From Dyadobacter sp. 50-39 (lineage in GTDB: Bacteria > Bacteroidota > Bacteroidia > Cytophagales > Spirosomataceae): a stretch of DNA of 64,000 bases. The stretch lies in assembly GCA_001898145.1 (NCBI GenBank), contig MKSR01000024.1, forward strand, positions 78,497 to 142,496, given 5' to 3'. This document shows, one piece after another, positions 30,557-45,488 of the stretch; the first letter of the stretch is position 1, and every line of letters begins with the position of its first letter. The notes under the pieces are model-generated. The model had not been told where the DNA came from, did not search any database, and saw nothing but the letters and a program-made list of their open reading frames with translations. Both the position numbers and the translations under genes were made by a program.

Positions 30557-31452
30557 AAAAGAAAGCGGAAATTACCCACCCGGAGAAGGTTTACTGGCCG
30601 GACGAGCATATTACCAAAGGCGAACTGATCGACTATCACCGCAATATCGCGCCCTACATCCTGCCCTACATGAAAAACAGGCCGCTCTCGCTGCGCAGGC
30701 AGCCTAACGGGATCAAAGACGAAGGCTTTTTCCAGAAAGATGCCAGCGATTCGGTGCCGGAATGGATCAAAACTTTTGAAATACTGGCCGAGTCGACCGG
30801 GAAAATGGTGAACTACCATGTGGTAAACGATGTAGAAAGTCTCCTCTACATCGCCAATCTGGGATGCATTGAAATGAATCCCTGGAACTCGACCATCAAC
30901 AAACTCGACAATCCCGACTGGATTGTCATGGACATCGACCCGTCGGATAAAAACACCTTCGATGACGTCATCGATGTTGCATTGACGATCAAGCAAATCC
31001 TCGACGAAATGGAGGTGGAAGGATTCTGCAAAACCTCCGGCGCGAGCGGCATGCATGTATACATTCCTTTCGGCAAGAAATACGACTACGACCAGGCGCG
31101 CGACTTTGCGGAGTTACTCGCGCACATGGTTACCGAGCGCCTCCCCAAACTCACCACGTTGGAACGTTCGCTCTCGAAACGCAAAAAGAACCAGATCTAC
31201 GTCGACTATCTGCAAAACCGCATCGGGCAGACGCTCGCGTGTGCGTACAGTGCCCGCCCGAAGCCTGGCGCCACGGTTTCCACACCCCTCGATTGGGGCG
31301 AGGTGCAGCATGGCCTCAGCCCGAAAGACTTTACAATCAAAAACATCTTCGGGCGGCTGGAAAAGAAAGGAGACCTTTTCAAAGGCGTGCTGGGCAAGGG
31401 CATTAACCTCAATAAGGCATTGCAAAAGCTCTCGCCACCCGTGCAGGATTAG
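30553..31452 (+). CDS. Stand-alone LigD polymerase (primase-like) domain
   Basis: NHEJ polymerase of the archaeo-eukaryotic primase superfamily, which fills gaps at broken ends with nucleotides. The 299 residues cover only the Pol domain: THPEKVYWP near the N-terminus, catalytic aspartates in WIVMDIDPSD, the KTSGASGMHVYIP motif and YVDYLQN. No ATP-dependent ligase or 3'-phosphoesterase domain is attached, and none lies in this window. The ligase must be encoded elsewhere if the pathway is complete. Overlaps ku by four bases. Confidence 0.95.
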   Translation: MKKKAEITHPEKVYWPDEHITKGELIDYHRNIAPYILPYMKNRPLSLRRQPNGIKDEGFFQKDASDSVPEWIKTFEILAESTGKMVNYHVVNDVESLLYIANLGCIEMNPWNSTINKLDNPDWIVMDIDPSDKNTFDDVIDVALTIKQILDEMEVEGFCKTSGASGMHVYIPFGKKYDYDQARDFAELLAHMVTERLPKLTTLERSLSKRKKNQIYVDYLQNRIGQTLACAYSARPKPGATVSTPLDWGEVQHGLSPKDFTIKNIFGRLEKKGDLFKGVLGKGINLNKALQKLSPPVQD

Positions 31453-31505
31453 GAGATGATTTGAAGGTGTATTTACTTTAACCCTTCTAAACCAAAACCA
31501 ATACC

Positions 31506-32672
31506 ATGCGCCTAATCCCTACTCAAAAGAACATCGGCACGGCGTTGCTGATCGTGCTCCTCATTGCACCGTTGCTTTTCCTGAACAGCTGCTCATCCGA
31601 AAAGGACGGCGAAGGGGATGCGGATTCCACCAAAAGACCCGTCGTGATCGGCTACGTCGGCGGTTTCCACGGATTGCTCAATACCGGTAATATCGATGCC
31701 AAAATGCTCACGCACATCAATTATGCATTCATCGACATTAAAGATGGCAAGGCATTTCTGAGCAACGAAAAAACCGACACCACCAATTTCCGCCAGCTCA
31801 ACCTCCTGAAAGCCGATAATCCCGACCTGAAAATCCTGATCTCGATCGGCGGATGGGCGTGGAGCGAGCACTTTTCGGATGCCGTTCTGACGGACTCGTC
31901 GCGCAAGGTATTCGCAAAAAGCAGTGTGGAGATTATCAAAAAATACAATCTCGACGGCGTGGACATCGACTGGGAATACCCTGGTCTACCCGGTGAAGAA
32001 GGCAATGTCTACCGTCCGGAAGACAAGCAGAACTATACCGAAATGTTTCACGCGATCCGCAATGAGCTGGACCTGCTCGAAGAAGAAACCGGTAAGAAAA
32101 AGCTGCTGACCACCGCCGTGGCAGGCTGGGTGGAGTTCCTGAAAGCGACCGAAATGGACAAGGCGCAGCGCTACCTGGATTACGTGAACCTGATGACCTA
32201 CGACTTGTTCCAGGGGGACACCGCCGTGCACCACGCAAGCTTGTACCCTTCCAAAATCTACAAAACGGCCAAATCCGTGGATAATGCCGTAAAAGGCTTC
32301 CATGCAGCGGGAGTTCCGATGGAGAAACTGGTGGTAGGGCTTCCGTTCTATGGCCGGATGTTCACCGTGGCCAAGCTGGAAAAAGGACTTGGGCAAAAAC
32401 AGATCAAGCAGCAATACATCGATGGCTACTCCTACATCAAGGATAGCCTGGTCAATAAAAAAGGCTACAAGGAATACCGCGATACCGTGGCCAAGGCGCC
32501 CTACCTGCTCAATGCAGAAACCGGCGACGTACTGAGCTATGACGACGAGGAGTCGGTAAGGGAAAAGTGCAAATATGTGCTGGCCAACAAGCTCGCCGGC
32601 GTGATGTTTTGGGAATACGACTCCGACCCCAAGAAGTATCTGCTTAACGAGATTGATAAATCTTTAAAATAG
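31506..32672 (+). CDS. Glycoside hydrolase family 18 (chitinase-like) lipoprotein
   Basis: Secreted, lipid-anchored enzyme that would hydrolyse beta-1,4 links in chitin or related N-acetylglucosamine polymers by substrate-assisted catalysis. 388 residues; lipobox LNSC with Cys29. The TIM barrel shows HINYAFIDI, SIGGW and the catalytic DGVDIDWEYP with Glu157 as acid, plus MTYD and the terminal MFWEYDSD. No chitin-binding domain is attached. It ends 9 bases inside the convergent endonuclease V gene. No SusC/SusD pair is next to it. Confidence 0.95.
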   Translation: MRLIPTQKNIGTALLIVLLIAPLLFLNSCSSEKDGEGDADSTKRPVVIGYVGGFHGLLNTGNIDAKMLTHINYAFIDIKDGKAFLSNEKTDTTNFRQLNLLKADNPDLKILISIGGWAWSEHFSDAVLTDSSRKVFAKSSVEIIKKYNLDGVDIDWEYPGLPGEEGNVYRPEDKQNYTEMFHAIRNELDLLEEETGKKKLLTTAVAGWVEFLKATEMDKAQRYLDYVNLMTYDLFQGDTAVHHASLYPSKIYKTAKSVDNAVKGFHAAGVPMEKLVVGLPFYGRMFTVAKLEKGLGQKQIKQQYIDGYSYIKDSLVNKKGYKEYRDTVAKAPYLLNAETGDVLSYDDEESVREKCKYVLANKLAGVMFWEYDSDPKKYLLNEIDKSLK

Positions 32673-33404
32673 CTTCCAGCTATCCACTTCATGATACCCC
32701 TCGGCAAGCGCCCCGATCCGGAACCTGTTCACGTACTCATGTGCGTGGCGCGTGGGCTCCGGCAGGCGGTGCTTGCCGGTGCATTTCAGCGCGAAGGTGA
32801 GGCTGTCTTCCAGGCTCATCTTGTGGCCGGGAGAAATGAAGACCGGTTTGACATGATCTTTGGTCCTCACTGCGTAGCCGATCACCTCTCCCCTGTCGGT
32901 CACATAGCTGTATTCCCCTTTTAATTTGCCGGGCTCGTCGTATTGTCCGGCAAGCTTTTTCTTGGCACAACCCATTGTCACCGCCCCGGTAAGCACGCCG
33001 AAATGCGAAGCAATGCCCATCCTGCGGGCGTGCAGAATGCCGTTCCCATCAAACATGACCACATCCGGCTTCACCGGAAGCTGTTCATAGGCTTTCAAAA
33101 TGGCCGGAATCTCGCGAAATGCGAGGTAGCCGGGCACGTAAGGAAATATGGTGCTGCTTTTCACCAGCGAATAGGCCACGGGTTGTAGGTCGGGGTAGCT
33201 TAGTACCACCAGTCCGGCGTAAACGGTTTCACTATAAAGCGCCAGGGAAATATCCGCGCCTGCAATTGTTTTAATGTCGTTTGGGAAAGGTTCCAGGCTT
33301 AAATACCCGCGAAGCTGCTGCTGGATAAGCGTTGCTTCCGGGATCGTGAGCTGGTCGTAGTTGAGCTCCGGGGTGATGACCATCCGGTTCAATGAGTCTG
33401 GCAT
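32664..33404 (-). CDS. nfi: Endonuclease V (deoxyinosine 3'-endonuclease)
   Basis: DNA repair nuclease that nicks one nucleotide 3' of deoxyinosine. About 246 residues from ATG 33404; a later ATG at 33383 is also possible. Motifs: AGADIS (metal-binding Asp), REIPAILKAYE, FDGNGILHARRMGIASHFG and FISPGHKMSLEDSL, all matching the Nfi core. The frame upstream of 33404 adds residues that overlap no conserved region. Convergent with the GH18 gene and divergent from the following small membrane protein gene. Confidence 0.96.
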   Translation of the reverse strand: MPDSLNRMVITPELNYDQLTIPEATLIQQQLRGYLSLEPFPNDIKTIAGADISLALYSETVYAGLVVLSYPDLQPVAYSLVKSSTIFPYVPGYLAFREIPAILKAYEQLPVKPDVVMFDGNGILHARRMGIASHFGVLTGAVTMGCAKKKLAGQYDEPGKLKGEYSYVTDRGEVIGYAVRTKDHVKPVFISPGHKMSLEDSLTFALKCTGKHRLPEPTRHAHEYVNRFRIGALAEGYHEVDSWKLF

Positions 33405-33465
33405 GATATTTCGTGGTTGTATACGAAAGTTATTACCCTGATCAATCAAAAACTACGCCACCTTC

Positions 33466-33972
33466 ATGGAACAAACCTCCGTCAGACGCAAATGGGCCAA
33501 TTGGAAGTTCATTTCATTCGTTGTAATCCTCATTGCCATTTTTGTCAAATTTTATGTGCTGGACAGTCACGATGAGAATGCGCCCGTAACCGTGGCGCTG
33601 GACCTCCCGCAAGTCGCATTCCGAAGCCAGCAGGAAGTAGCCGCCGTGCTGGGTGAAGGCACGCTGGAAAGCTATTACAGCGACGAGCAGGCCGGTTGCG
33701 AGAAATGCCCCCGCGTGACCTACCGCGAGGGCAAGGTGGAAATTATCTATATCAACGACATTGCCGACCAGATCAGGCTGAACAAACTCTCCGACTACGA
33801 ATTTGAGGACCGCATTATCCTGGGACTGCTCAACCTGACGGAGAACATTGCGCCAAAAGTCGATGAGAAAGGCGTAAAAACCTGGGAGAATTACCAGAAA
33901 TATACCCAGATCTCTGCATTTTCGAAAAGCGGCGATGTGGACTATATTTTGATTAAAGCCAAGACCAAATAG
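33466..33972 (+). CDS. Membrane-anchored protein of unknown function
   Basis: A 168-residue protein with a positively charged N-terminus (RRKWANWK), one transmembrane helix (about 15-31, FISFVVILIAIFVKFYV) and an exported mixed alpha/beta domain with one cysteine pair (GCEKCP). The C-terminal part (SAFSKSGDVDYILIKAK) resembles small periplasmic domains of Bacteroidota without a named family. It starts at ATG 33466, 61 bases from the divergent nfi start. Monocistronic as far as visible. Confidence 0.8.
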   Translation: MEQTSVRRKWANWKFISFVVILIAIFVKFYVLDSHDENAPVTVALDLPQVAFRSQQEVAAVLGEGTLESYYSDEQAGCEKCPRVTYREGKVEIIYINDIADQIRLNKLSDYEFEDRIILGLLNLTENIAPKVDEKGVKTWENYQKYTQISAFSKSGDVDYILIKAKTK

Positions 33973-34199
33973 CTACGCTACCGAACACTTGCTCACACTG
34001 CTGAGCACTACTTACCGCAAACCGGAATATTGTACTTTTTAAATAAAAACCATCTCGTTAGCGTGTTGGGCCGTATTTGAATATTTCAATTCTAAAAAGT
34101 GCATAAAATCCTTTAAATCACTCATCACTAATAAAAACCATTCACATAGCCGTTTGATCACTCATTGAATAAATAGGTGGCCATTCATAAAATCCCATT

Positions 34200-34207
34200 T
34201 ATATTTG
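34200..34207 (+). promoter_or_regulatory. Bacteroidetes -7 box (TATATTTG)
   Basis: Exact TAnnTTTG match 45 bases before the ATG of the 73-residue exported protein at 34253. No clear -33 element. Confidence 0.5.
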
Positions 34208-34252
34208 CATCATCAAATAAGACAAAGACAAGAAAACAAAATAAATGGAGCT

Positions 34253-34474
34253 ATGAAAACTTTGATCACAACCCTCGTTAGCGTTATCGCATTGACCAGT
34301 TCAGTTGCATTTGCAGACGATAATAAGTCAACCACTACAATCAAGAACACGTTGCCGGCATCGACCCCGGTGGTAGAAACACCGGCACCACCGAAAGCGA
34401 CAAAAGTGAACCCATATAGTACACAAACGCCCGCTCAGAAAGCGGCCATCGTGGAGCTTAAAACGACAAAATAG
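34253..34474 (+). CDS. Small exported protein of unknown function (73 aa)
   Basis: Starts at ATG 34253 with a signal peptide (TLITTLVSVIALTSSVAFA, cleavage before DDN). The mature part is about 50 residues, rich in Thr, Pro, Ala and Lys, with a KVNPYSTQTPAQKAA segment, so it is probably disordered. It has its own -7 box and its own terminator, which argues for an abundant single-gene transcript. No family recognised. The longer frame from 34205 is not protein-like. Confidence 0.75.
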   Translation: MKTLITTLVSVIALTSSVAFADDNKSTTTIKNTLPASTPVVETPAPPKATKVNPYSTQTPAQKAAIVELKTTK

Positions 34475-34510
34475 GTTTTAGTAAAAATTGAAAGGTGAAA
34501 TTGAGATGTT

Positions 34511-34541
34511 AAAAAGGAGGGCGCTTGCTCCTCCTTTTTTT
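34511..34541 (+). terminator. Rho-independent terminator after the 73-aa gene
   Basis: A 10-bp stem AAAAAGGAGG/CCTCCTTTTT with a 9-nt loop and T-rich flanks. It is nearly symmetric, so it can also serve the convergent MFS gene ending at 34563. Confidence 0.9.
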
Positions 34542-34562
34542 ATGCCCATCCATTAAGGCAGA

Positions 34563-35855
34563 CTATGCAGCAGCAAGGGGTGCCCTGCTTTTGTCTGAGG
34601 AGCGGTACTTATCGAAGTAAATATTACTGGCCGCCAGCAGCAGGAGGCCCAAAACGAATTGCAGGTAAGAGAACTGCATCAGCACCCGCGACCAGCTCAG
34701 GTCCTTCATAAAAAACTCCTTGTAGAGCAGCAGCCCCACGCTGCCCATATAGCCGATACTCTCGCAGATGTACACGAAATACCCCGCATTGGCCTTTACG
34801 CGGTACAATGCGATCATTCGCTCGAAAACGACGGTTTGAAGCACCGTATAGGCCAAAAACAAACCAAGTCCCACCAGCAGCATCCAGTAAAAACCGCTGA
34901 TCACCGATTTTTCAAACAGCAGCGTCCCCACGCCGATCAGGATAACACCCCCGAAAAGGATCAGGTAGGCAAGCCGGAAACCGGTCAGATTATCCCGCAC
35001 GAACGCCAGTGCGCCGATAATGACCAGCACCACAATGCCGGTGATCATTTCGGTGGTGGTGAGCACGCTGCTCCCCCAATGCGAGTCGATCTCGTTCCAT
35101 ATCTCGATCGTGAAATTGTCGCGGAAGTCGCGCACGACCACCAGCGTGGCGTAAAAAATAACCAGGCAGGCGATGGGGAAGCCGAATTGCCGCATGACCT
35201 GCCGCTTATCCCCGCCCGTCATAGGCACACGTTCCGTGCGCAAGGCCACGTCCTCCGCGGTCGGTTTCGGGATCATGGCCAGCATCCATACGAACATCAG
35301 AAAAGGCGGCAGGAAAAGCAAACCCATCAAAAACGGCATCCAGAACTCCGTGATGCCGGGAAAAATAGCGTGAACTTCGATGTAAGTAGTTTTGAGAATA
35401 CCCGAGGCTACTACCACACTGATATTAAGGCCCATGGCCAGCATTTCCGTAAACCGGCGGCCTTCCAGGAAACTGAACACCACTCCGTACACCATCCCGA
35501 GCGGGAGGCCATTCATAAAAAGGAAAATAAAATTGTAAGGGTAAGGCACCAGCCCGAAGAAAAGCAGCGCCAGTTCTGCCAGCAAGATGAGCCCGATCAC
35601 CAGCCTGATCCGCGCATTGTGTTTCAGCTCCGAAATCACTTTGATCCCCGCGAACTTGGAGAGCGTGTAGCCCGCTACCTGTGAGATGATCAGGACCGCC
35701 TTGTAGCTTACCTCACCGAGTTCAAGCCCATGGTAAAGCCCTGCATTGAACGGCTTGCGAAAGGCGTACATGCAGAAATAAGTCCCGAAGGAAGCGACAA
35801 CAGCCCAAATGATGAAAAACGTATTCGATCGTGCGAGAGCTTCTTTCAGGCGCAT
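34563..35855 (-). CDS. DUF5690/MFS-type transporter at the end of the phosphonate-like operon
   Basis: Twelve-helix inner-membrane protein of 430 residues in the DUF5690 group of major-facilitator-like proteins. The first segment reads FGTYFCMYAFRKPFNAG, reminiscent of organophosphate antiporters such as GlpT/UhpT, where a YxFRK-type start is common; this similarity is by eye. It lies 19 bases after the class III PLP enzyme gene, as the last gene of a five-gene unit. I infer import of a phosphonate or related organophosphorus compound. A different solute cannot be excluded. Confidence 0.85.
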   Translation of the reverse strand: MRLKEALARSNTFFIIWAVVASFGTYFCMYAFRKPFNAGLYHGLELGEVSYKAVLIISQVAGYTLSKFAGIKVISELKHNARIRLVIGLILLAELALLFFGLVPYPYNFIFLFMNGLPLGMVYGVVFSFLEGRRFTEMLAMGLNISVVVASGILKTTYIEVHAIFPGITEFWMPFLMGLLFLPPFLMFVWMLAMIPKPTAEDVALRTERVPMTGGDKRQVMRQFGFPIACLVIFYATLVVVRDFRDNFTIEIWNEIDSHWGSSVLTTTEMITGIVVLVIIGALAFVRDNLTGFRLAYLILFGGVILIGVGTLLFEKSVISGFYWMLLVGLGLFLAYTVLQTVVFERMIALYRVKANAGYFVYICESIGYMGSVGLLLYKEFFMKDLSWSRVLMQFSYLQFVLGLLLLAASNIYFDKYRSSDKSRAPLAAA

Positions 35856-35874
35856 AAGGTCATTTTTTGCGTTT

Positions 35875-37233
35875 TTATACCAAAACCGAAGCCGTTTCGA
35901 TGGCCCGTTCCAAAATCTGCAATGCTTCCTTCAACTGTTCGCGGGTAATGATCAGGGGCGGCGAAAGCTGTACCACATTTCCCTGCGATACTTTGAAGCT
36001 CAAACCTTTTTTAAGGCATTCGTACATGACGGCTTCCGCCTCCTGCACCGCCTTCTCCTTCGTTTCGCGGTCCCTCACCAATTCCACACCCCACAAAAGC
36101 CCGATCCCCCGGACCTCGCCGATGAGCGGATATTTCACTTTCAGCTTTTCCAGTTCTTCACGCATAAAATGCGCGTCGGCATTCACCTTGCCGAGAAGGT
36201 CGTTTTGTTCGATAAATTCCAGCATAGCCAGCGCAGCGACGCTGCCGAGCGGGCTTTTCTCGTGGGTAAAATGCCCCAGCGACACGCTCTGCGCCACATT
36301 GTAGCGGTCACGTGCTACGATGGCGGCCATTGGCATTACACCACCGCCAAGCCCTTTGCCCAGGCATACAATATCCGGCTCGAGGCCATAATGCTCAAAT
36401 GCAAACATCCGGCCCGTGCGCCCGAATGCGATGGGGATCTCGTCGAGGATGAGCAGCACCCCATGTTTCGTACAAATTTCCCGTACGCGCGCCCAATAGG
36501 CCTGCGATGGGATCTGCACGTCGGTATTGCGGATGGTTTCGATGACAAACGCTCCGATATCACCCTCTTTTTCAATGACGTATTCAAGATAGTCGGCATA
36601 AGGCATATCGCCATTGCCTGCTGCGGCAAATGGCCCGCGGTAGGTCATAGGCGGCGGAATGCGCTCTACACCCGGCATCAGCGGGCCCATATCCTTCCTG
36701 AAATCGAGCTCCCCGCCTGCGGAAATGGCATCCAGCGAGGCGCCGTGAAAGGAATCCCACAGCGAGACGACCTTATGCTTTCCCGTGACAATGCGGGCGA
36801 GTTTCAAAGCCATGCTGATCGCCGACGTGCCCCCAGGCGCGAAAAGGACGCGGTTCAGGTCGCCGGGCATGAGACTGCCGAGTTTTTTGGCCAGCTCAAT
36901 GGCCGGAACATTGGTATACCTGCGTGGAGAAAACGGCAGAATATCCAGCTGCTCTTTCAGCTTTTCGATCACATATGGATGCCGGTAGCCCAGCTGGTGC
37001 ACATTATTGCCGTGAAAATCCATGTAACGCTTACCCTGCACATCGGTAAGGTAAATACCATCGCAGGAAGCGAGTACGTCCAGGCAGGGCGTCGACAGCG
37101 ACTGATGCAAAAAATATTCGGCGTCCTCGTGCAGGTAACCCGCGGTTTCGGGATCGCTCACGACAGCATACCAGTCCTGACGCGCGGATGATAAGTTAAT
37201 GTCGCCTTCCGTTCGGTTGTGTACAGCTGCCAT
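35875..37233 (-). CDS. pbfA: Class III PLP enzyme, probable (R)-1-hydroxy-2-aminoethylphosphonate ammonia-lyase
   Basis: Aminotransferase-fold PLP enzyme, 452 residues, ATG start at 37233. The PLP lysine is in LGKGLGGG (Lys293) and the ring-nitrogen aspartate in ILDEIP (Asp264). The N-terminal stretch (GDINLSS, FLHQSLSTPCLDVL, FHGNNVHQLGYRHP, LPFSPRRYTN, FAPGGTSAI) matches my recollection of PbfA, which removes ammonia from (R)-1-hydroxy-2-aminoethylphosphonate to give phosphonoacetaldehyde, and not ordinary ornithine or GABA transaminases. The neighbours fit: an aminophosphonate-oxidase-like flavoprotein and a phosphonatase-like HAD enzyme in the same operon. An ordinary aminophosphonate transaminase is the main alternative. 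Confidence 0.8.
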   Translation of the reverse strand: MAAVHNRTEGDINLSSARQDWYAVVSDPETAGYLHEDAEYFLHQSLSTPCLDVLASCDGIYLTDVQGKRYMDFHGNNVHQLGYRHPYVIEKLKEQLDILPFSPRRYTNVPAIELAKKLGSLMPGDLNRVLFAPGGTSAISMALKLARIVTGKHKVVSLWDSFHGASLDAISAGGELDFRKDMGPLMPGVERIPPPMTYRGPFAAAGNGDMPYADYLEYVIEKEGDIGAFVIETIRNTDVQIPSQAYWARVREICTKHGVLLILDEIPIAFGRTGRMFAFEHYGLEPDIVCLGKGLGGGVMPMAAIVARDRYNVAQSVSLGHFTHEKSPLGSVAALAMLEFIEQNDLLGKVNADAHFMREELEKLKVKYPLIGEVRGIGLLWGVELVRDRETKEKAVQEAEAVMYECLKKGLSFKVSQGNVVQLSPPLIITREQLKEALQILERAIETASVLV

Positions 37234-37269
37234 GCGCAGGGTTACAGGGTTTAAATGCGTTGAGCTAAT

Positions 37270-38232
37270 CTACGGTTTTTCGCCGAGCCATAGATTTTTA
37301 GGCTCGCTCATTCCATTGAAAACCGGCTTCACCGGCCGACCGATCCATGCGTAAGGCTGCTCTACTCCCAATGCGAATGCGATCGTCGAAGCCAGGTCAT
37401 AAGTATAAACCTGCTGCCGGATCAGATAACCTTTCTTCACACCGGCGCCATAAAACACCCCGGCTATTTCTGCCTCCTGCGGAGTAGCCCCGCCGTGGCC
37501 TTTACCGACGCCGCCATGATCGGCCCAGAGGATAACCAGCGTCTTATCGGCGATACCGGCATCTTTGATAGCTGTCAGAATCTTCCCGATCAGGGAATCC
37601 GCCTTCGCAACCGATTGGTAATATTGCACCGTGCCGTGTCCGTCGTGATGCCCCACGTGGTCGACGTGGTCGAAATGCACGAAACCCAGTACCGGCTTTT
37701 TCTTTTTGATATATTGAATAAAATCTGTGGCGGTAGAATCCTCCGTTGAAAAATGCTTGTCGTAGTTCACCGCATTCTTCTGGAACAATCTTCCGAATCC
37801 GCCCCAATGGTACACGGCACCGATCTCCGCTTTGGGTTTTGCTTTATGTAGAATACTGAAAATGGTTGGGAAGCGCCCGTCCGCTTCCTGCGCGATGGGC
37901 GGGAGCGTGTGCTTGTCCAGTTCCCAATCGTTGTTGATAATCCCGTGCTGCTCGGGGCCTGCGCCCATGATCATCGACGCCCAGTTCTGGCTGCTTGCCG
38001 AGGTAAGCACCGTACGCACGTTCCATTTGACGGCCCCATTGGCCACCATCCGGTCGATATTCGGCGTTTCGGCTTTCCGGATACCGTCGGGACTTAGCCC
38101 GTCGACGCCGATCACAATCACATGTTCGATACCGGCCGGTTGCTCAGCGGTGCCGGTTTGCCGGGAAGGGGCATGAAATGCGGCCAGCGTAAGCGAAACG
38201 GCCGCCAGCGCGCAGGAAACTTTTGCAAGCAT
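37270..38232 (-). CDS. Secreted alkaline-phosphatase-superfamily phosphodiesterase/phosphonohydrolase
   Basis: Periplasmic or secreted metalloenzyme of the NPP/AP superfamily, 320 residues, with an N-terminal signal peptide (AAVSLTLAAFHA). Two-metal ligands are all present: Asp44 (IGVDGLSPDG), a nucleophile serine near 78-81 (SASSQNW, followed by GPEQHGI), Asp191 and His195 (DHVGH), Asp238/His239 (ADHG) and His246 (GHGG). It sits 36 bases upstream of the PbfA-like gene and 11 bases after the flavoprotein. In this context I infer hydrolysis of a phosphonate ester or diester outside the cytoplasm, releasing an aminophosphonate for import. It could also be a general phosphodiesterase, or a phosphonoacetate-hydrolase relative. 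Confidence 0.85.
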   Translation of the reverse strand: MLAKVSCALAAVSLTLAAFHAPSRQTGTAEQPAGIEHVIVIGVDGLSPDGIRKAETPNIDRMVANGAVKWNVRTVLTSASSQNWASMIMGAGPEQHGIINNDWELDKHTLPPIAQEADGRFPTIFSILHKAKPKAEIGAVYHWGGFGRLFQKNAVNYDKHFSTEDSTATDFIQYIKKKKPVLGFVHFDHVDHVGHHDGHGTVQYYQSVAKADSLIGKILTAIKDAGIADKTLVILWADHGGVGKGHGGATPQEAEIAGVFYGAGVKKGYLIRQQVYTYDLASTIAFALGVEQPYAWIGRPVKPVFNGMSEPKNLWLGEKP

Positions 38233-38243
38233 ATATCAAAAAT

Positions 38244-39371
38244 TTAAGATCGGTAAGTTCCGCCAACTACTTCGTCGCAAAGACCGAACGAGAGGGTCAT
38301 GCCGTTTCCACCCAGGCCGTTGATGATCGTTACACCACTCTCAGGCCTCATCACAATCTCCGTCGCCCCATTGGTCATTTTAGGATAGATCCCGTGCCAG
38401 CTCTGGAACACTTTGGGCGATTTGAGTTGTGCGAATGTGCCCAGGTAGTCGAGGATCATCTTATTGATAAACTCCCGATCGAAAGGATCGAAAGTAAGCG
38501 CGTACTCATGCGAATCGCCCACCGTGATCTCTCCCAGGCCGTTCTGAGAAGCCATTACATGAATGCCCCATTTCAGGTATTCGGCATAATCGCGTTCATA
38601 TCTTGCTTTCAGGCCCGGCAGTGACGCCGCCGCCCTGAACCCGTGGTAATGGATGAATGACAATCCGCCGCACAATGCCGGCCCGATGCGCCAATCGTCG
38701 GGCTGCGCTTCGAGGCGCATCATCTGCAACTTGCATTTGGTCAATGGCGCCGCAGCGAACTGCTCAGGATAAAGTGTTTCAAAATCCTGTCCGCTGCAAA
38801 CGAAAATCTCGTCCGCCGACCAGCTTTTTTCACCCGAAAACACCGTGGGATATTCCACTTTTGAAATAGCCGTATTCCAGATGAATGTCACATCCAATGC
38901 CGCCGTCAGGTAACCCGGGATAGCCGCAATGGCCTCTCGCGGATCGACGATCATTTCATCTGCGGAATACAGCGACCCCAACAGTCCGTCCGGATTCACC
39001 GCAGGCGATTTCGCCAGCGTTTCCTCGGCATTCAAAAAACTCACAGGCCGGTACGGGCTCACCTCCACAAACTGCTGGATCACTTCCAGCTCGTCCTGAT
39101 GGTAGGCCATATGCAAACTTCCCGCTTCCTGTGACCAGCATTTCGCACCCGCCAACACTTCCTTCCAGATACTTTTGGCGTGCAATGCCCTTTCATACAA
39201 CGCGCCTTCCGGCTGTCCGATGGGCCATACCATCCCGAAATTACGGATGGATGCACCTACCGCCTGTGTAGAACGTTCGATCACCGTTACTTTATAACCT
39301 CTTGTGGCCAAAGCCCTTGCCGTTGCCAACCCCACTATCCCAGCGCCAATGACAATCGCAGATTTACCCAT
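38244..39371 (-). CDS. FAD-dependent aminophosphonate oxidase-like protein (TIGR03364 type)
   Basis: DAO-family flavoenzyme, 375 residues from ATG 39371 (a TTG three codons upstream is less likely). The FAD-binding turn is GAGIVGLATA (Gly9-x-Gly11-x-x-Gly14), followed by SIRNFGMVWPIGQP, a block I associate with TIGR03364, the oxidoreductases found next to phosphonatase-like genes. The C-terminal FAD closure reads NGLGGNGMTLSFG. Likely role: oxidative deamination of an aminophosphonate such as 2-aminoethylphosphonate, its N-methyl form or its 1-hydroxy form (compare PbfC/PbfD). It lies 30 bases after the HAD gene. The exact substrate is open. Confidence 0.88.
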   Translation of the reverse strand: MGKSAIVIGAGIVGLATARALATRGYKVTVIERSTQAVGASIRNFGMVWPIGQPEGALYERALHAKSIWKEVLAGAKCWSQEAGSLHMAYHQDELEVIQQFVEVSPYRPVSFLNAEETLAKSPAVNPDGLLGSLYSADEMIVDPREAIAAIPGYLTAALDVTFIWNTAISKVEYPTVFSGEKSWSADEIFVCSGQDFETLYPEQFAAAPLTKCKLQMMRLEAQPDDWRIGPALCGGLSFIHYHGFRAAASLPGLKARYERDYAEYLKWGIHVMASQNGLGEITVGDSHEYALTFDPFDREFINKMILDYLGTFAQLKSPKVFQSWHGIYPKMTNGATEIVMRPESGVTIINGLGGNGMTLSFGLCDEVVGGTYRS

Positions 39372-39401
39372 GCTTTTCAATCCGATATGAATGTGAACGA
39401 A

Positions 39402-40106
39402 TTAACCTTTTACCGCCATTTCATGGCCCGCAGCGATAATGCCGCGCACCTCCGCAATGTCGTCGATGACGTGCGTGGGCTTGTACGGCAACAGCGCCTC
39501 GCGTGTAAACGCGCCGGTGGTAATCCCGATCACATATTTGCACCCTGCATTGAGCCCCTCATTGATATCAACCTCGGTATCACCCACTTTGGCAATACGA
39601 TCAGCAGATTCCACGCCCAGCTCAGCCATGATTTTACGGATCATATCCGGATAAGGCCGCCCGAACGGAACTTCGTCACTCGCTACGAGGCAGTCTATTT
39701 TATTTTCCCAGCCCAGCCTGCTTATGATGACGTCGGCAATGTCGCGCGAGAAACCGGTATTCAGCGCGATTTTAATCCCTTCTTCCCGGAGCGCGCTAAA
39801 AGTTTCTTCCACGTGCGGCAGCGGCGCTATCTCCGTAGTCGTCTGATAAAATTCGATCATCCCATTCACAAAATGCGTGTGGATCGCTTCCACAAGCGCA
39901 TTAGTTATCTTCGACTTATCGGACTCACGTACTTCAAGCATCATTTTAATCGCCAAAGGCTTTTCGTAACCCATCAGCGGGTTGATGTTCTCAATCGCGA
40001 TCTCGTACCCCTGCGACAGCATCGCTTGCTGAAACGCAATCCCTACAAAATTTTTATCCCTGACAGTCGTACCTGCCATATCGAAAACTACCAGTTCTAT
40101 CGACAT
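39402..40106 (-). CDS. Phosphonatase-like HAD hydrolase (PhnX-like, TIGR03351 type)
   Basis: Haloacid dehalogenase enzyme of 234 residues from ATG 40106, with the phosphonatase version of motif I: DMAGTT (nucleophile Asp9, alanine in place of the usual second aspartate). Arg150 in FGRPYPD replaces the common motif III lysine, as in PhnX. The cap has LMGYEK, so Lys49 sits where PhnX has its Schiff-base lysine (MGxxK). Motif IV is GDTEVD. Expected chemistry: hydrolysis of the C-P bond of phosphonoacetaldehyde or a close analogue to an aldehyde and phosphate. First gene of the operon; a candidate promoter lies about 230 bases upstream. Confidence 0.88.
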   Translation of the reverse strand: MSIELVVFDMAGTTVRDKNFVGIAFQQAMLSQGYEIAIENINPLMGYEKPLAIKMMLEVRESDKSKITNALVEAIHTHFVNGMIEFYQTTTEIAPLPHVEETFSALREEGIKIALNTGFSRDIADVIISRLGWENKIDCLVASDEVPFGRPYPDMIRKIMAELGVESADRIAKVGDTEVDINEGLNAGCKYVIGITTGAFTREALLPYKPTHVIDDIAEVRGIIAAGHEMAVKG

Positions 40107-40412
40107 CTCACTTGGTATAATTGGTGAACTAATACTGAACTTCTCTATAAGCACTCCCGGCATTCCGGCAGCACGGGCTCAAACCAAAGAAAGTTTAGTA
40201 AAATTTAACTATGCACTTTTTCATTCCTGCACCTTGCATTGGTTTACAGCCGAAAAATACAGTAAAATACACACGCCTGCAAGAAAAAGTTAAGCAATAT
40301 TAAAAATTTGGCACACTAAAACTGTGATCACTGCAAAACTAGTAAACCATAACCAGTCACAGGTTAAGCAAATGTTAATTAATATTTAACAAGAAGATTT
40401 AACAAAACAGCG
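40107..40412. other. Leader of the phosphonate-like operon, AT-rich, with two similar 17-bp sites
   Basis: A 306-base region without a gene. It contains GTTTAGTAAAATTTAAC (40193-40209) and GTTAATTAATATTTAAC (40374-40390), both of the form GTTWA-N7-TTAAC, and a minus-strand -7 box at 40334-40341. The two sites are candidates for regulator binding; the AT-rich context means chance cannot be excluded. Confidence 0.35.
40334..40341 (-). promoter_or_regulatory. Bacteroidetes -7 box (TAGTTTTG on minus strand)
   Basis: Exact TAnnTTTG match on the minus strand between the regulator and the HAD gene, about 228 bases before the first ATG. A CAAA (TTTG on the minus strand) lies 27 bases upstream, too far for a standard -33 element. 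Confidence 0.35.
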
Positions 40413-40991
40413 CTACTGCGCCTCGTTGAAGAAGTAGATAACCAGCAGCAAAGCCTCGCTGCATTCGTGGCATTTGAGGTTATGAAGCTCATTGGCGTCA
40501 AAAAACATCGAGTCGCCCTGGTTGAGGATGTACTTATTTTTTCCGACGGTGTATTCAACCCCTCCGGAAAGCACATATTTGAATTCAAATGCATTGGTGC
40601 GGACCATCGGCCGCTTCGCATCCTTTTCGAGCCGCAGCAGTACGACATCTATATGGTTATCCTTGAATTGCTTGCTGAATATGCGCTGGTAAAAATAACC
40701 CTTGGCATTTTCCTTCGTAAACGGCTGGTACTCCTCTTTCCGCCGGACAAGCACGTTTTCGCCCGGAGCCGTTGATATAATATCCTTGAAAAACACATTT
40801 AGGTCAATATCCAATGCCTTGATCAGCCCCAGCATAACCGGTAAAGAGGGAATCGTACGACTGTTTTCGATCTGGGACACAAGACTTTTGGTCACGCCAG
40901 CCTCATCGGCAATCTCCTGAAGGGTAACCCCTTTGCTTTTTCTGACTTCTTTTAACTTGTTGCTGATCTGGAAAAGAATGTCCTCCTGCAT
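40413..40991 (-). CDS. XRE-cupin transcriptional regulator
   Basis: Regulator of 192 residues: an N-terminal XRE helix-turn-helix (LQEIADEAGVTKSLVSQIEN, about 24-43) joined to a C-terminal cupin (about 120-185, GDSMFFDANELHNLKC). Proteins with this layout sense a small molecule or metal in the cupin and control adjacent catabolic genes. It lies upstream of the phosphonate-like operon on the same strand, separated by 306 bases. Local regulation of that operon is a reasonable inference. Two 17-bp sites between them could be its operators. Confidence 0.9.
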   Translation of the reverse strand: MQEDILFQISNKLKEVRKSKGVTLQEIADEAGVTKSLVSQIENSRTIPSLPVMLGLIKALDIDLNVFFKDIISTAPGENVLVRRKEEYQPFTKENAKGYFYQRIFSKQFKDNHIDVVLLRLEKDAKRPMVRTNAFEFKYVLSGGVEYTVGKNKYILNQGDSMFFDANELHNLKCHECSEALLLVIYFFNEAQ

Positions 40992-41057
40992 AGCGCTGAG
41001 CGTGATTACCGGTTACGTCCGTTGAATAATAGGCACAAATTAAACCCTAATTTTGGT

Positions 41058-41096
41058 CTAAAAATAGAAAATCTCCCGGTTGCGGCCGCCGGGAGA
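41058..41096 (-). terminator. Rho-independent terminator after the ICL/PEPM-family gene
   Basis: Perfect 8-bp stem TCTCCCGG/CCGGGAGA with a 9-nt loop, followed on the minus strand by TTTTCTATTTTT. It closes the two-gene unit ending at 41129. Confidence 0.85.
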
Positions 41097-41128
41097 CTTC
41101 ATTAGTATACAAAAAAATCATCTTTCGG

Positions 41129-41953
41129 TCACATAAGCAGCGCGGTAACCGGCCGGTGGCTCAGGGTTTCCTTTACATTTCTGAGTAATGCCTCCATCGA
41201 CAGCAACGTAGCCCGGTGTACGTTGGGCCCGAAGCTCACCCGCGCCACACCCAGCTTTTGCAGCACATCCAGATCGGGCGCATCGCTTTTGGCCAGAATG
41301 TTCACCGGCACTTTCAATGCATTTACCAGCGTCTTGATCGCCTCTTGTTCCGTTACGAAAATCGGGTAAATAGCGTCGGCACCCGCCTCTACATACGCAC
41401 GCCCCCGCTCTATCGCCAGCGCAAGCTTCTGGTCCGAGGGCAAATCGGACTTTACCAGGAAAGTATCCGTGCGGGCATTCACGAACAGCCGGGCATTTTC
41501 ACGGTCGGCCACACGCCCGATCAGTTTCAGTTTCTCCACCTGCTCGCTCATCGGCACCAATTCGCGGGTAAGGACGTCGGTATCTTCGATATTGATGCCC
41601 GCCACACCGACGGCGATCAGTCGGCGGATGTTGGATTTCAATACCTCATTATCGGCTGCGTAACCCGCTTCGATATCGACAGAAACCGGCACATTGACCG
41701 ATTTGACGATCTGCCCGACAATGGCCAGCAGCAGATCGAACGGGATCCTTTCGCCATCCTCGTAGCCGTGCGCGCGGGCAATGGCCGCACTGGCGGTGGC
41801 AACGGCCGGATAACCCAGGCTTTCGAGCAGCACCGCACCAGCTGCGTCCCAAATATTGGGCAAAACAAGCATTTTACCGCTATGATGCAGCTTTTTGAGC
41901 AAGTCAGCCTTCTCCGACTGTGAGCTCATCTGGATAGCACGACTGTTAAACAT
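41129..41953 (-). CDS. Isocitrate lyase/PEP mutase superfamily enzyme
   Basis: TIM-barrel lyase or carboxylase-type enzyme. From ATG 41953 it has 274 residues; another ATG at 41929 would shorten it by eight. Signature parts: LPNIWDAAGA, SVDIEAGYA (metal-binding aspartate), GINIEDTD and VNARTDTFL. The lid loop lacks the KKCGH of isocitrate lyase and the EDKxFPK of PEP mutase, so the substrate is unknown. Oxaloacetate decarboxylase or carboxyPEP-mutase-like activities are possible. The start overlaps the stop of the AhpD-like gene by 8 bases, so the two are translated together. Confidence 0.88.
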   Translation of the reverse strand: MFNSRAIQMSSQSEKADLLKKLHHSGKMLVLPNIWDAAGAVLLESLGYPAVATASAAIARAHGYEDGERIPFDLLLAIVGQIVKSVNVPVSVDIEAGYAADNEVLKSNIRRLIAVGVAGINIEDTDVLTRELVPMSEQVEKLKLIGRVADRENARLFVNARTDTFLVKSDLPSDQKLALAIERGRAYVEAGADAIYPIFVTEQEAIKTLVNALKVPVNILAKSDAPDLDVLQKLGVARVSFGPNVHRATLLSMEALLRNVKETLSHRPVTALLM

Positions 41954-42416
41954 GACGCTCAACGGCATGGGCAGCCGGAGCATTGACGGCCACCTGGTCG
42001 GTAATCATAATACGGTTCCAGGCGCTGATCGCCACGACGCCCATCACCACAGCCTTGGTATACTCCTCGCCCAGCAGCTCCACGGCGTGGTTATACACTG
42101 CGTCGGTTACGCCTCCCCGGTGGATGAGCGTTACCTGCTCTGTAAGGGCCAAAATGGATTTCTCCTCTTCCGTGTAAATATTTGCCTCGCGCCAGGCGCT
42201 CAACATATATATATGCTGCTCGCTCATGCCGAGCTCGCGGGCCTGCCGTGCGTGCATATCCAGGCAAAACCCGCATCCGTTGATCTGGGAAGCGCGGATT
42301 TTGATCAGCTTGTAATGCATTTTGTCCAGGCCGGTCGAAGCCACATACTTTTCAATTTCCCGCACAGCCGCAAAGGCTTGGGGGGTTAGTTCACTGGTTG
42401 GTTTTCGGTGGGACAT
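41946..42416 (-). CDS. Carboxymuconolactone decarboxylase/AhpD-like protein
   Basis: Alkylhydroperoxidase-like protein of 156 residues. The reactive Cys pair is in NGCGFCLDMH (CxxC followed by H), the hallmark of AhpD-core proteins that reduce peroxides or peroxiredoxin partners. Helical throughout. It is the first gene of a pair with the ICL/PEPM enzyme and diverges from an AraC regulator. A minus-strand TAAATTTG box lies 29 bases upstream of the ATG. In related bacteria such genes are often induced through adjacent AraC regulators. Confidence 0.92.
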   Translation of the reverse strand: MSHRKPTSELTPQAFAAVREIEKYVASTGLDKMHYKLIKIRASQINGCGFCLDMHARQARELGMSEQHIYMLSAWREANIYTEEEKSILALTEQVTLIHRGGVTDAVYNHAVELLGEEYTKAVVMGVVAISAWNRIMITDQVAVNAPAAHAVERHV

Positions 42417-42444
42417 AGCTAATATGAAATGAGTGAAATCAGAT

Positions 42445-42452
42445 CAAATTTA
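42445..42452 (-). promoter_or_regulatory. Bacteroidetes -7 box (TAAATTTG on minus strand)
   Basis: Exact TAnnTTTG match 28 bases upstream of the AhpD-like ATG at 42416, in the region shared with the divergent AraC gene. Confidence 0.5.
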
Positions 42453-42612
42453 CATCCGCTTCGGACTACCCGTGTGATCCATTTAAGCACATTTCCAATA
42501 GTCCACTCACTGTGAAAAGGAAGGGCCGCTTCGAAATTAAAAAGTGATTAATCAGGCCCTTTCCGAAACTTTCCCAGACCATTCTGCTATTTGAATTTTA
42601 TAATATTGCACT

Positions 42613-43521
42613 ATGAGCCATACCGAATCCATCCAGGAGTTTTACCGTCGTCTGCCGCAGGCAAACCCGGCGGATTTGTCGCTGAACAATGCCGGCATAG
42701 GACATTTCAATGTGTTTGAAAGAAACTCGTGCTACAAAAAAACCCCTTACAGCCGCCGCGACTTTTATAAAGTGTCCTTCATCATCGGCACCGGCCGCCT
42801 GCATTATGCCGACAAATGGATTGAAATCGATCGGCCTGCATTGCTTTTTTCGAATCCTATGGTGCCTTATTCCTGGGAAGCCATCTCGGAATCGCAGCTG
42901 GGCTGGTTTACATTATTCACCGAAACCTTCGTGCATCCGGCGGAGCGTAAGGATTTTTTACAAGATTCGCCGCTATTCAAAATCGGTGCAAACCCGGTCT
43001 ATTTCGTGAATGAGCAGCAACAGAAGGAACTCTCGATGCTATTTCGGAAAATGATGACCGAGATCGAGTCGGACTATCCGCATAAATACGGCATGCTGCG
43101 CAACTACCTGCATCTGATCATCCATGAAGCGATGAAAATGCAGCCTGCGGAAACGTTCGAACGGCAAACGAATGCGTCGGCGCGGATCACCTCGCTATTC
43201 ATGGAACTGCTCGAAAGGCAATTTCCGATTGACACGCCCGAGAACGCATTGCGCCTGAAAACGGCCAATGATTATGCACAAAGTCTTTCGGTGCATGCCA
43301 ACCATTTGAACCGTTCGGTGAAGGAGATTACCGGAAAAACCACGACCGAACACATTTCGGCCCGCATTACCAAGGAAGCACAGGCGCTGCTCAACCACAC
43401 CAACTGGAATGTGTCCGAGATCGCTTACAGCCTGGGTTTTGAATATCCCGCCTATTTCAATATTTTCTTCAAAAAGCAGACCGGCCTCACACCCGGAAAC
43501 GTGCGCACCAGGGCTGTGTGA
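42613..43521 (+). CDS. AraC family transcriptional regulator
   Basis: A 302-residue regulator with an N-terminal cupin-like ligand domain (about 20-150, DFYKVSFIIGTGRL, IEIDRPALLFSNP) and a C-terminal double helix-turn-helix (about 205-300) ending in WNVSEIAYSLGFEYPAYFNIFFKKQTGLTP, which is the second AraC helix-turn-helix. It is divergent from the AhpD-like/ICL-PEPM pair and probably controls it. ATG start at 42613 without a clear -7 box; the nearest match has one mismatch. Confidence 0.93.
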   Translation: MSHTESIQEFYRRLPQANPADLSLNNAGIGHFNVFERNSCYKKTPYSRRDFYKVSFIIGTGRLHYADKWIEIDRPALLFSNPMVPYSWEAISESQLGWFTLFTETFVHPAERKDFLQDSPLFKIGANPVYFVNEQQQKELSMLFRKMMTEIESDYPHKYGMLRNYLHLIIHEAMKMQPAETFERQTNASARITSLFMELLERQFPIDTPENALRLKTANDYAQSLSVHANHLNRSVKEITGKTTTEHISARITKEAQALLNHTNWNVSEIAYSLGFEYPAYFNIFFKKQTGLTPGNVRTRAV

Positions 43522-43538
43522 TTTTTATAAACATCCGC

Positions 43539-43566
43539 CCGGCCCCGCCGCAATGGCGAGGGCCGG
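43539..43566. repeat. GC-rich hairpin between convergent genes
   Basis: CCGGCCC pairs with GGGCCGG, extended by CGCC/GGCG across a one-base bulge. It lies between the AraC stop and the stop of the minus-strand 122-residue gene. There is no T-run on the plus side, so it may be a bidirectional terminator of weak type or simply structure. Confidence 0.4.
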
Positions 43567-43589
43567 CAGCCGACACCTTATTCCTGAAA

Positions 43590-43958
43590 TCAGATGGTCT
43601 TCAGGGACGGATCATAGAACGTCCTCCAAAGCGCCACGGCTTCCCCCACTGTTTCGGGAGGCGAAGCCAGGTAGTTCTTAATTTTTGCCAGGTTCTCGGA
43701 ATGAACGTCTTTGACCGCGTATTTAACGAGGTTAACCAGCAGCTTATCGATCTCCGAGGTATCGTTACGCCAGTTTTTGCTATACTTCGCAAACCACTCT
43801 TCGTTCAGAAAAACTACGCCCGAGTACCTGTACACATCCGAAAACCCGAACGCATCGATTACGATCGGCTCGGTGGGCCATTCTGCATCCAATTCCTTGT
43901 CACTGTACCGCTCGCGGCCATCGCCGAGGAGGGCGATAAATCTGTATGTTTTTACCAT
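43590..43958 (-). CDS. Protein of unknown function (122 aa)
   Basis: Soluble protein starting at ATG 43958. N-terminal beta segments (KTYRFIALLGDGRERYS) lead to a mixed region and a helical C-terminal half (EIDKLLVNLVKYAVKDVHSEN). No signal peptide and no motif I can name. It is convergent with the AraC gene and divergent from the following unknown gene. Composition is ordinary for the region, so I take it as real. Confidence 0.65.
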   Translation of the reverse strand: MVKTYRFIALLGDGRERYSDKELDAEWPTEPIVIDAFGFSDVYRYSGVVFLNEEWFAKYSKNWRNDTSEIDKLLVNLVKYAVKDVHSENLAKIKNYLASPPETVGEAVALWRTFYDPSLKTI

Positions 43959-44112
43959 GGTGAAGATTATTTCCGCTCAATATATTCCGTCGGATTTACT
44001 GCTACAAATGATTTTGTAAAAATTGTTCCTGCCTGTCCTGCGCTCACTGGAAATGATTGTACCAATAGGATTGTTACCTAATTTTACGCCAATACCAAGG
44101 AATAGTTACTTC

Positions 44113-44619
44113 ATGATCCGAATCTCCCAACTTCCGCTGATCCAAAACCCCGGGCAATTTTACGCTTCCGAACATATCCTGCTCGTGGATGTGCTGCTGG
44201 TAGGCGACGCGCCGCGGCAAATGCGGGAATATATCAAAAACACCCACGGAGGATTTATTTACGACAAGAAAACGTACATCCCCATCACGCTTACGGGGAC
44301 GCCCGAAAGCCTGCTAGGCAATGCCGGCAAGCCGATCGTTTTCAAGTTCGACCGCGGCTTTGAGAACCATTACCACTTCGACGGCGACCTGAAAGCATTG
44401 ATCTGGCATAAAAAACTATACAACATTTCGGGCCTCATTAACCAACCGTCCGTCCAGTTCGAGCGCGAAGAGGCATTCATCATCGAGCGATACCTGGCCG
44501 GCCACCGCGAATATACCGCCGCGCCGGAAACGGAAGAAAAACTTCTGACCCTTCCGGCACAAAACCCCTCCATCGGCCTGAAAGCAATGAAAGGGCTCCG
44601 GCCTGTAAGGAAGGGTTAG
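44113..44619 (+). CDS. Protein of unknown function (168 aa)
   Basis: I start it at ATG 44113; the frame extends to 44023 but that part is not protein-like. The product is soluble and acidic/basic balanced, with a central HGGFIYDKKTYIPITLTG region, FKFDRGFENHYHF and a basic C-terminus (MKGLRPVRKG). I do not recognise the family. A hairpin at 44614-44640 overlaps its stop codon. The unknown gene on its left diverges from it. Confidence 0.65.
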   Translation: MIRISQLPLIQNPGQFYASEHILLVDVLLVGDAPRQMREYIKNTHGGFIYDKKTYIPITLTGTPESLLGNAGKPIVFKFDRGFENHYHFDGDLKALIWHKKLYNISGLINQPSVQFEREEAFIIERYLAGHREYTAAPETEEKLLTLPAQNPSIGLKAMKGLRPVRKG

Positions 44620-44640
44620 GGATCGAAACGATCTCTAACC
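44614..44640. terminator. Hairpin between convergent genes at 44619/44651
   Basis: GGTTAG/CTAACC and GATCG/CGATC pair around an AAA loop with one G-T pair between. It starts inside the stop codon of the plus-strand gene. No strong T-run follows, so confidence as a terminator is moderate. Confidence 0.5.
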
Positions 44641-44650
44641 GCATCACCTT

Positions 44651-45403: not shown

Positions 45404-45488
45404 CGGATATGGGGAATTGGAGCAGTAAACATTTTCAGATAATGTTTAAGAAAAGACCAATGCCGCAAATACTACCGAAAAAAGCCCG

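Follow-up and report, generated by a model that had tools for sequence, protein, structure and literature searches.

A probable aminophosphonate scavenging operon in Dyadobacter and DUF5690 as a candidate family of aminophosphonate carriers in the Bacteroidota

What is a carrier of an uncharacterised family doing in one short gene cluster with three enzymes of aminophosphonate breakdown and a hydrolase that is probably exported? The question is raised by a 64,000-nt (64 kb) stretch of contig MKSR01000024.1 of Dyadobacter sp. 50-39, here called the window, in whose positions all coordinates are given; the source genome lies near Dyadobacter, the window carrier sharing as much as 92% identity with proteins of Dyadobacter. 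An earlier note, made from the DNA letters alone, had described five genes on one strand with gaps of 11-36 bases, and they are indeed present, all on the minus strand with intergenic gaps of 21, 11, 36 and 19 bases: a PhnX-like, putative phosphonoacetaldehyde hydrolase of the HAD superfamily (39402..40163), a flavin adenine dinucleotide (FAD)-dependent oxidoreductase of TIGR03364, putatively of the PbfD group (38244..39380, with a TTG start), an alkaline-phosphatase (AP)-superfamily phosphodiesterase of the NPP type (37270..38232), a class-III pyridoxal phosphate (PLP) enzyme of the PbfA family (35875..37233) and a carrier of the major facilitator superfamily (MFS) that belongs to DUF5690 (PF18943; 34563..35855). 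We conclude that this unit is probably an operon for aminophosphonate scavenging, in which ester release, import by DUF5690 and cytosolic cleavage of the carbon-phosphorus (C-P) bond are joined under the control of an XRE-cupin regulator. The interpretation given in the earlier note is supported, the checks that it had named as able to refute it having turned out in its favour; it under-read the carrier, as DUF5690 is common to several distinct aminophosphonate routes.

In the proposed pathway, the phosphodiesterase would be exported and would cut aminophosphonate esters outside the inner membrane, probably those of glycans or lipids, the likeliest group released being (R)-1-hydroxy-2-aminoethylphosphonate (R-HAEP) because the hydrolase tracks PbfA. 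The freed aminophosphonate would be imported by DUF5690, possibly against phosphate released by C-P cleavage. In the cytosol, PbfA would turn R-HAEP into phosphonoacetaldehyde, the FAD enzyme would do the same with N-methyl-aminoethylphosphonate (N-methyl-AEP) and perhaps AEP, and the PhnX-like HAD enzyme would split the common product into acetaldehyde and phosphate, while control of the unit would lie with the XRE-cupin protein, acting at repeats that precede the HAD gene.

The role of the carrier is best approached through the company that it keeps. In an evenly drawn sample of 395 genomes of the Bacteroidota, DUF5690 was found above cut-off in 42, giving 46 regions once the window's own copy and two sub-cut-off matches are left out; with 80 further loci from a scan of titled genome contigs (the best 80 of at least 595 DUF5690 loci) these make 126, and the removal of three duplicates leaves 123. 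Neighbours were called by phmmer at fixed score thresholds, and the enzymes were named from representatives that were scored against curated models, namely PhnW (479.9 against a cut-off of 400.8), PhnA (497.2 against 407.6), PhnY (678.6 against 635.7), TIGR03364 (440.7 against 285.1) and PbfA (686.4 and 726 against 525), with six more sampled PbfA loci also passing the PbfA cut-off. At least one aminophosphonate enzyme is encoded in 106 of the 123 loci, in 104 of them within 2.5 kb of the carrier; the share is 74/79 among titled loci, a set that is biased because it holds those nearest to the window, and 32/44 among evenly drawn ones. The neighbours are most often the FAD (78 loci) and HAD (71) enzymes and an XRE regulator (65), followed by PhnW and the hydrolase (21 each), PbfA-like enzymes (20), PhnY (17) and PhnA (16). 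FAD lies within 2.5 kb of the carrier in 71 loci and HAD in 61, and each lies more than 5 kb away in only 2. When the sampled regions are set against 40 like-sized control regions from 34 of the same genomes, FAD and HAD each occur in 23/46, XRE in 20, PhnW in 8 and PbfA-like enzymes in 6, and the controls hold none of the five (0/40 for each).

These neighbours do not make up one pathway. Across the 123 loci we find an FAD oxidase with a PhnX-like enzyme (41), the same pair with an HD oxygenase (13), an FAD oxidase with PbfA and a PhnX-like enzyme (11), an FAD oxidase with PhnY/PhnA (8), PhnW alone (8), PhnW with PhnY/PhnA (5) and rarer mixes, with none of these in the remaining 17. What these differing routes would have in common beside DUF5690 is an aminophosphonate that needs to be imported. 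As a side observation, an oxygenase of the Phn-HD type (TIGR03276) is present in 17/123 loci (for example L051, L043 and L113) and in 0/40 controls, one of the four checked scoring above the TIGR03276 cut-off. DUF5690 also occurs above cut-off outside the Bacteroidota, in the control genome of Caulobacter vibrioides. Two loci encode related proteins (L123:11357-12619 and L054:5384-6694), of which that of L054 matches metallo-beta-lactamase below the threshold (20.3 against 22.7 bits) and that of L123 has no Pfam match.

Of the three parts of the proposal, the pathway is the one for which the case is strong. The PLP enzyme, which the earlier note had called PbfA-like, scores 742.7 bits against the model of PbfA, the (R)-HAEP ammonia-lyase (NF049939, cut-off 525), whose product is phosphonoacetaldehyde. 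Its single better model, 'aspartate aminotransferase family' (798.8), is one that confirmed PbfA relatives pass too, while the next, ordinary transaminase models lie far lower at about 305 or less; Lys293 is kept in all 21 PLP enzymes aligned. The flavoprotein was likewise rightly assigned to TIGR03364 (427.9 bits against a cut-off of 285.1) and is the sole above-cut-off match in the genome. Genome-wide there is no PhnW above cut-off (the best match reaching 38.6 against 400.8 bits) and no PhnJ, in agreement with the earlier statement that both PhnW and C-P lyase are missing from the unit.

The PhnX-like assignment of the HAD enzyme holds in part. Its top two models are the phosphonatase families TIGR03351 and TIGR01422, its best sequence match in the Protein Data Bank (PDB) is the phosphonoacetaldehyde hydrolase 1rql (E 6.7e-24), and most catalytic residues are kept: D28 (in a DxAGT motif), K68, T136, R169, D195 and D199 are found in 72/72 HADs, and we take them to include the nucleophile (D28), the cap lysine (K68) and the metal-site aspartates (D195 and D199), together with T136 and R169. 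What counts against phosphonatase activity is that the enzyme falls below both curated cut-offs (199.5 against 218.9 for TIGR03351 and 129.7 against 220 for TIGR01422), and that the position presumed to correspond, in number and role, to His56 of the PhnX cap is Ala in the window and Ala, Val or Gly in 61, 10 and 1 of the 72. A Leeuwenhoekiella relative narrowly passes TIGR03351 at 219.3, and genome-wide there is no second phosphonatase-like HAD, the window enzyme scoring 129.1 bits and the runner-up 46.9. The reading frame probably starts at an internal ATG at 40106 (MSIEL) and not at 40163, since the relative in locus L087 begins there (HAD ORF of 705 bases).

The cytosolic chemistry here is already known, given what has been published on PbfA, on PbfC/PbfD and on phnX without phnW. 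In the papers drawn on here, R-HAEP is the substrate of PbfA (PMC8154272, PMC12366243), PbfC and PbfD enzymes convert N-methyl-AEP to phosphonoacetaldehyde, one PbfD2 also accepting AEP (PMC10590968), phnX clusters lacking phnW are described, PbfD is noted in the FCB group to which the Bacteroidota belong and the PbfD1 of A. baumannii is said to carry the annotation TIGR03364 (all PMC10590968), and pbfA with phnX is noted outside the Proteobacteria (PMC12366243). The PbfD2-PhnX pathway of PMC10590968 resembles the proposed route in that a PbfD-group FAD oxidase feeds phosphonoacetaldehyde to a phosphonatase without PhnW; the window unit differs by adding PbfA, the phosphodiesterase and the DUF5690 carrier, and by a HAD enzyme that is PhnX-like and below both cut-offs. 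The words 'Bacteroid', 'MFS' and 'alkaline phosphatase' are absent from the same paper. The PbfA clusters of PMC8154272 likewise have PbfA adjoining C-P cleavage genes, but those of its Figure 2 hold phnW, whereas the window unit lacks phnW and includes a linked ester hydrolase. It is the carrier family and this linked hydrolase that are undescribed in the open-licence literature searched; DUF5690 is named in no paper found there, a scope that gives no proof of novelty.

We hold with moderate confidence that the hydrolase releases aminophosphonates from esters. Its place in the AP superfamily, as proposed earlier, is clear (PF01663, 101.6 bits against a cut-off of 23), and Foldseek lists XacNPP in rows 1-5, making NPP phosphodiesterases the nearest folds, with sulfatases also following. 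D44, S86, D191, H195, D238, H239 and H246 are kept in all 22 hydrolases scanned (the window protein with 17 close relatives and 4 distant ones); from the NPP alignment we take these to be six putative metal ligands and, in S86, the nucleophile, the aligned place being Ser86 in 22/22 and not the Thr that we assume for NPPs. Export is predicted from a hydrophobic N-terminus without a lipobox; a simple lipobox pattern is found in 9/22 N-termini, two of them too early for trust, and the window is not among the nine. As a sugar phosphonate monoester chemically resembles a phosphate diester, its release is a task for which an enzyme of the NPP type makes a sound candidate. The hydrolase tracks PbfA: it is present in 17/20 PbfA-like loci and in 4/103 others (p 2e-14), and across the 395 genomes it occurs in at least 16 and PbfA above cut-off in at least 15, with both in at least 11 where 0.6 are expected, and PbfA together with DUF5690 in at least 12 where 1.6 are expected, all of these counts being lower bounds because few candidates were scored per genome.

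This distribution also bears on whether the cytosolic route might be as proposed and the hydrolase a phosphodiesterase or phosphatase of general function, there to provide phosphate and not to release aminophosphonates. Such a role would suit the ranking of folds, in which NPPs and sulfatases lead and the phosphonate monoester hydrolase 2vqr appears only in row 45, and the recurrence of other phosphoesterase families (Metallophos, PhoD, purple acid phosphatase and PF04185) in related loci. It is hard to see why a general phosphatase should follow PbfA so closely from locus to locus and genome to genome, and we consider this alternative unlikely. For ester release itself, three points must be set on the negative side: NPP-type enzymes range over many diesters; taken alone, the hydrolase is found in 4/46 sampled DUF5690 regions against 0/40 controls, which is not significant (p 0.08); and the window enzyme lacks the extra domains that are found in its relatives.

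Those domains, of the PA14 and chitobiase types, are C-terminal and present in 10/22 hydrolases scanned, among them that of Dyadobacter locus L086; the hydrolases of L087, L088, L089 and L096 are without them, like that of the window. Together with the SusC/SusD proteins of related loci, they suggest, from domain content, that ester-bound aminophosphonates are harvested from glycans or lipids. Should lipids be the source (for example sphingophosphonolipids), with glycans playing no part, the enzyme would act in the manner of NPP6/NPP7. In keeping with this, ENPP6, a choline-headgroup phosphodiesterase, has the top identity (21%) among the 50 Foldseek matches listed, a PF04185 phosphoesterase is encoded in two related loci (L051 and L056) and HAEP is reported in the membrane lipids of a predatory bacterium (PMC8154272). 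The accessory domains, the SusC/SusD proteins and an alpha-L-fucosidase in locus L095 point instead to glycans, so that an exclusively lipid source seems doubtful to us.

Of the 123 loci, 45 encode a SusD-type protein; a phosphonate enzyme accompanies it in 43 of these and a hydrolase of the AP or purple-acid type in 17. SusC and SusD occur together in 39/123. In the same-genome comparison, SusD is present in 16/46 DUF5690 regions against 0/40 controls and SusC in 13/46 against 1/40; as the queries were taken from such loci, these figures mean that one kind of SusC/SusD recurs there and are not a general SusC/SusD enrichment. A Leeuwenhoekiella locus (L154) has the order SusD, hydrolase, PbfA, purple-acid-type phosphatase, second AP-type hydrolase, DUF5690 and HAD, with an FAD match that overlaps the end of the carrier and, by eye only, a stretch resembling the end of SusC at the border of the locus; a piece in L165 that resembles this stretch has no Pfam match. 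Single loci contain the alpha-L-fucosidase already mentioned, a PhoD-type phosphatase (L085) and metallophosphoesterases (L078 and L115). The ten loci examined in this way were picked by eye and so give no rate, and the fucosidase was found without a systematic glycoside-hydrolase search. Some related loci are like SusC/SusD polysaccharide utilisation loci in having SusC/SusD and hydrolases, here alongside phosphonate enzymes; the window unit differs, having no adjoining SusC/SusD and no SusC-sized ORF at 30000-46000 of the window, a point against the proposed reading. We found no open-licence paper that joins SusD with phosphonate and aminoethylphosphonate; three bring together TonB-dependent, Bacteroid and aminoethylphosphonate, and in one of these the mention is confined to a citation.

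Two further observations concern these enzymes. Next to PbfA, three sampled genomes have open frames of 822-838 aa in which the hydrolase is matched twice in tandem (G352:C1, G258:C117 and G215:C84). Another class-III PLP enzyme, scoring too low for the PbfA model's cut-off, lies near PbfA in L047 (4436-5839) and beside the hydrolase in G119:C237 and G336:C128, its substrate possibly being another aminophosphonate.

Turning to the carrier itself, we rate as good the reading that DUF5690 transports aminophosphonates, perhaps in exchange for phosphate. That it is an MFS/DUF5690 protein was correctly recognised earlier (PF18943, 481.3 bits against a cut-off of 25), and its AlphaFold model (pLDDT 92.4) has twelve long helices. 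The best Foldseek row among PDB structures is SLC37A4, at 17% identity, and 8 of the first 13 rows are SLC37A4 at 16-19%; this protein is the glucose-6-phosphate:phosphate carrier, an organophosphate:phosphate (OPA) transporter. R33, at the end of transmembrane helix (TM) 1, and R242, at the end of TM7, are found in 126/126 aligned carriers, and they may correspond to the phosphate-binding arginine pair that we take to occupy TM1 and TM7 of OPA antiporters (R45 and R269 of GlpT). A weak hhalign alignment places the FRKPF stretch of the carrier, which holds R33, close to RKNF, a motif in an OPA protein; TM7 lies outside this alignment. An OPA-like aminophosphonate carrier has precedent, since AepP, the mutant-proven 2AEP permease of Pseudomonas putida BIRD-1, is a GlpT relative according to PMC8316502, which also reports it in one Bacteroidetes species, Kriegella aquimaris. 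Both AepP and DUF5690 are single-protein MFS carriers encoded with aminophosphonate genes; they differ in that DUF5690 has no NCBIfam match, and that kinship would be drawn through fold rank and the TM1 motif and not through AepP's own sequence.

Several results weigh on the other side. Sialin and GLUT1 nearly equal SLC37A4 in the Foldseek ranking, in which GlpT is row 49; at E 1e-3 DUF5690 matches none of the NCBIfam models, among them TIGR00881 for the OPA family, and a profile search of PDB sequences returned no match. By hhalign the carrier is weakly similar to OPA-like proteins (E 0.033, probability 1.5%), in a test that is itself weak as only 2 of the 19 TIGR00881 matches used exceed the TIGR00881 cut-off; its similarity to FucP is weaker still (E 0.18), the positive control of OPA against FucP giving 99.4%. 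We therefore do not claim membership of the OPA family for DUF5690. In the same-genome comparison PhnA and PhnY, at 2/46 each against 0/40 controls, are not significant (p 0.28). Finally, 17/123 loci have no phosphonate enzyme (12/44 of those evenly drawn), and seven of them (L044, L060, L064, L067, L068, L069 and L073) form one clade of carriers with no such enzyme in the fetched stretch. Among the 17, two are on short stretches (L106 and L142) and two others have the hydrolase together with SusC/SusD (L122 and L124). Of the 12 sample genomes concerned, five encode a TIGR03364 protein above cut-off (one also PhnW above cut-off) and another gives no more than a weaker match to PhnW, while TIGR03364 and PhnW are both absent at E 1e-50 from the other six. 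In these enzyme-free loci the substrate may have changed, with some DUF5690 proteins carrying other solutes.

The enzyme-free loci, the clade of seven included, are also the chief reason to ask whether DUF5690 carries another solute throughout, either exporting a product such as phosphate, an acid derived from acetaldehyde or methylamine, or importing something unrelated, and this idea further gains from the want of a sequence link between DUF5690 and any known carrier. The neighbouring routes vary in their enzymes and in some of their products, the aminophosphonate substrate being what they all have in common, and the fold rank and the TM1/TM7 arginines resemble those of organophosphate:phosphate carriers; we judge another solute to be distinctly improbable and return to aminophosphonate import as the preferred role.

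The integrity of the unit is best seen within Dyadobacter. Nine Dyadobacter loci are among the 80 titled ones, and in eight of them (L086-L092 and L096) the order HAD-FAD-AP-PbfA-DUF5690 is kept on one strand, answering the question of recurrence raised by the earlier note; the ninth, D. bucti L115, is arranged as SusC-SusD-hydrolase-FAD-DUF5690-HAD. That the five genes came together by chance or hitch-hiking and do not work jointly is an idea to which this D. bucti arrangement and the varying PEP-mutase-family and CMD genes alongside might lend a little colour; it can be dismissed in view of the order kept in eight loci, the strong co-occurrence across the 395 genomes and the absence of FAD and HAD from all 40 controls.

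The XRE-cupin regulator that had been placed upstream of the unit is there, on the same strand (40413..40991, with HTH_3 and Cupin_2 above cut-off), and an XRE gene lies upstream in 7/8 of the like-ordered Dyadobacter loci, with no match in L091. Between it and the HAD gene lie operator-like repeats (40124..40390, minus strand), consisting of a 21-mer at 40370-40390 with arms GTTAA/TTAAC and degenerate copies at 40285-40305, 40189-40209 and 40124-40140. In an alignment of the XRE-HAD intergenic region from the window and seven Dyadobacter loci, mean identity is 57%, yet the 21-mer is invariant; it is exact in 7/8 Dyadobacter loci, L091 having two mismatches, and in the window copies at up to five mismatches are confined to 40189-40390. 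In other genera it is found at up to four mismatches in 2/118 loci against 2/40 controls. From their position and conservation, these repeats are likely candidate sites for the XRE-cupin protein.

Further upstream lie PEP-mutase-family and CMD genes (41129-42416 and 42613-43521), with an AraC-type regulator beyond. We considered the PEP-mutase-family and CMD genes (41129-42416) as members of the unit and rejected them; PEP-mutase exceeds 100 bits in only 4/8 Dyadobacter loci, with a weaker match in L096, and is therefore probably part of a separate unit.

A broader picture can be offered more tentatively, as one that we think somewhat less likely to be right than wrong. DUF5690 would be a carrier family new to science whose members bring in aminophosphonates, probably by exchange with phosphate. 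In the Bacteroidota it would be the hub of loci for phosphonate utilisation that follow the plan of polysaccharide utilisation loci: capture at the outer membrane would fall to SusC/SusD, phosphodiesterases with carbohydrate-type domains would strip (hydroxy)aminoethylphosphonate from phosphonoglycans (those of soil amoebae, for example), import would take place in exchange for phosphate released inside, and the cytosolic C-P cleavage modules would be interchangeable. According to PMC6697681, bacteria are believed to make phosphonates mostly for the decoration of glycans and lipids on the cell surface, and in the literature examined we found no description of ester-bound phosphonates being freed before C-P cleavage. 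If the reading is true, the uncharacterised carrier family DUF5690 would gain a function, many Bacteroidota could import aminophosphonates through a single membrane protein, and the linked phosphodiesterase would be a candidate enzyme for freeing ester-bound phosphonate in soil and sea.

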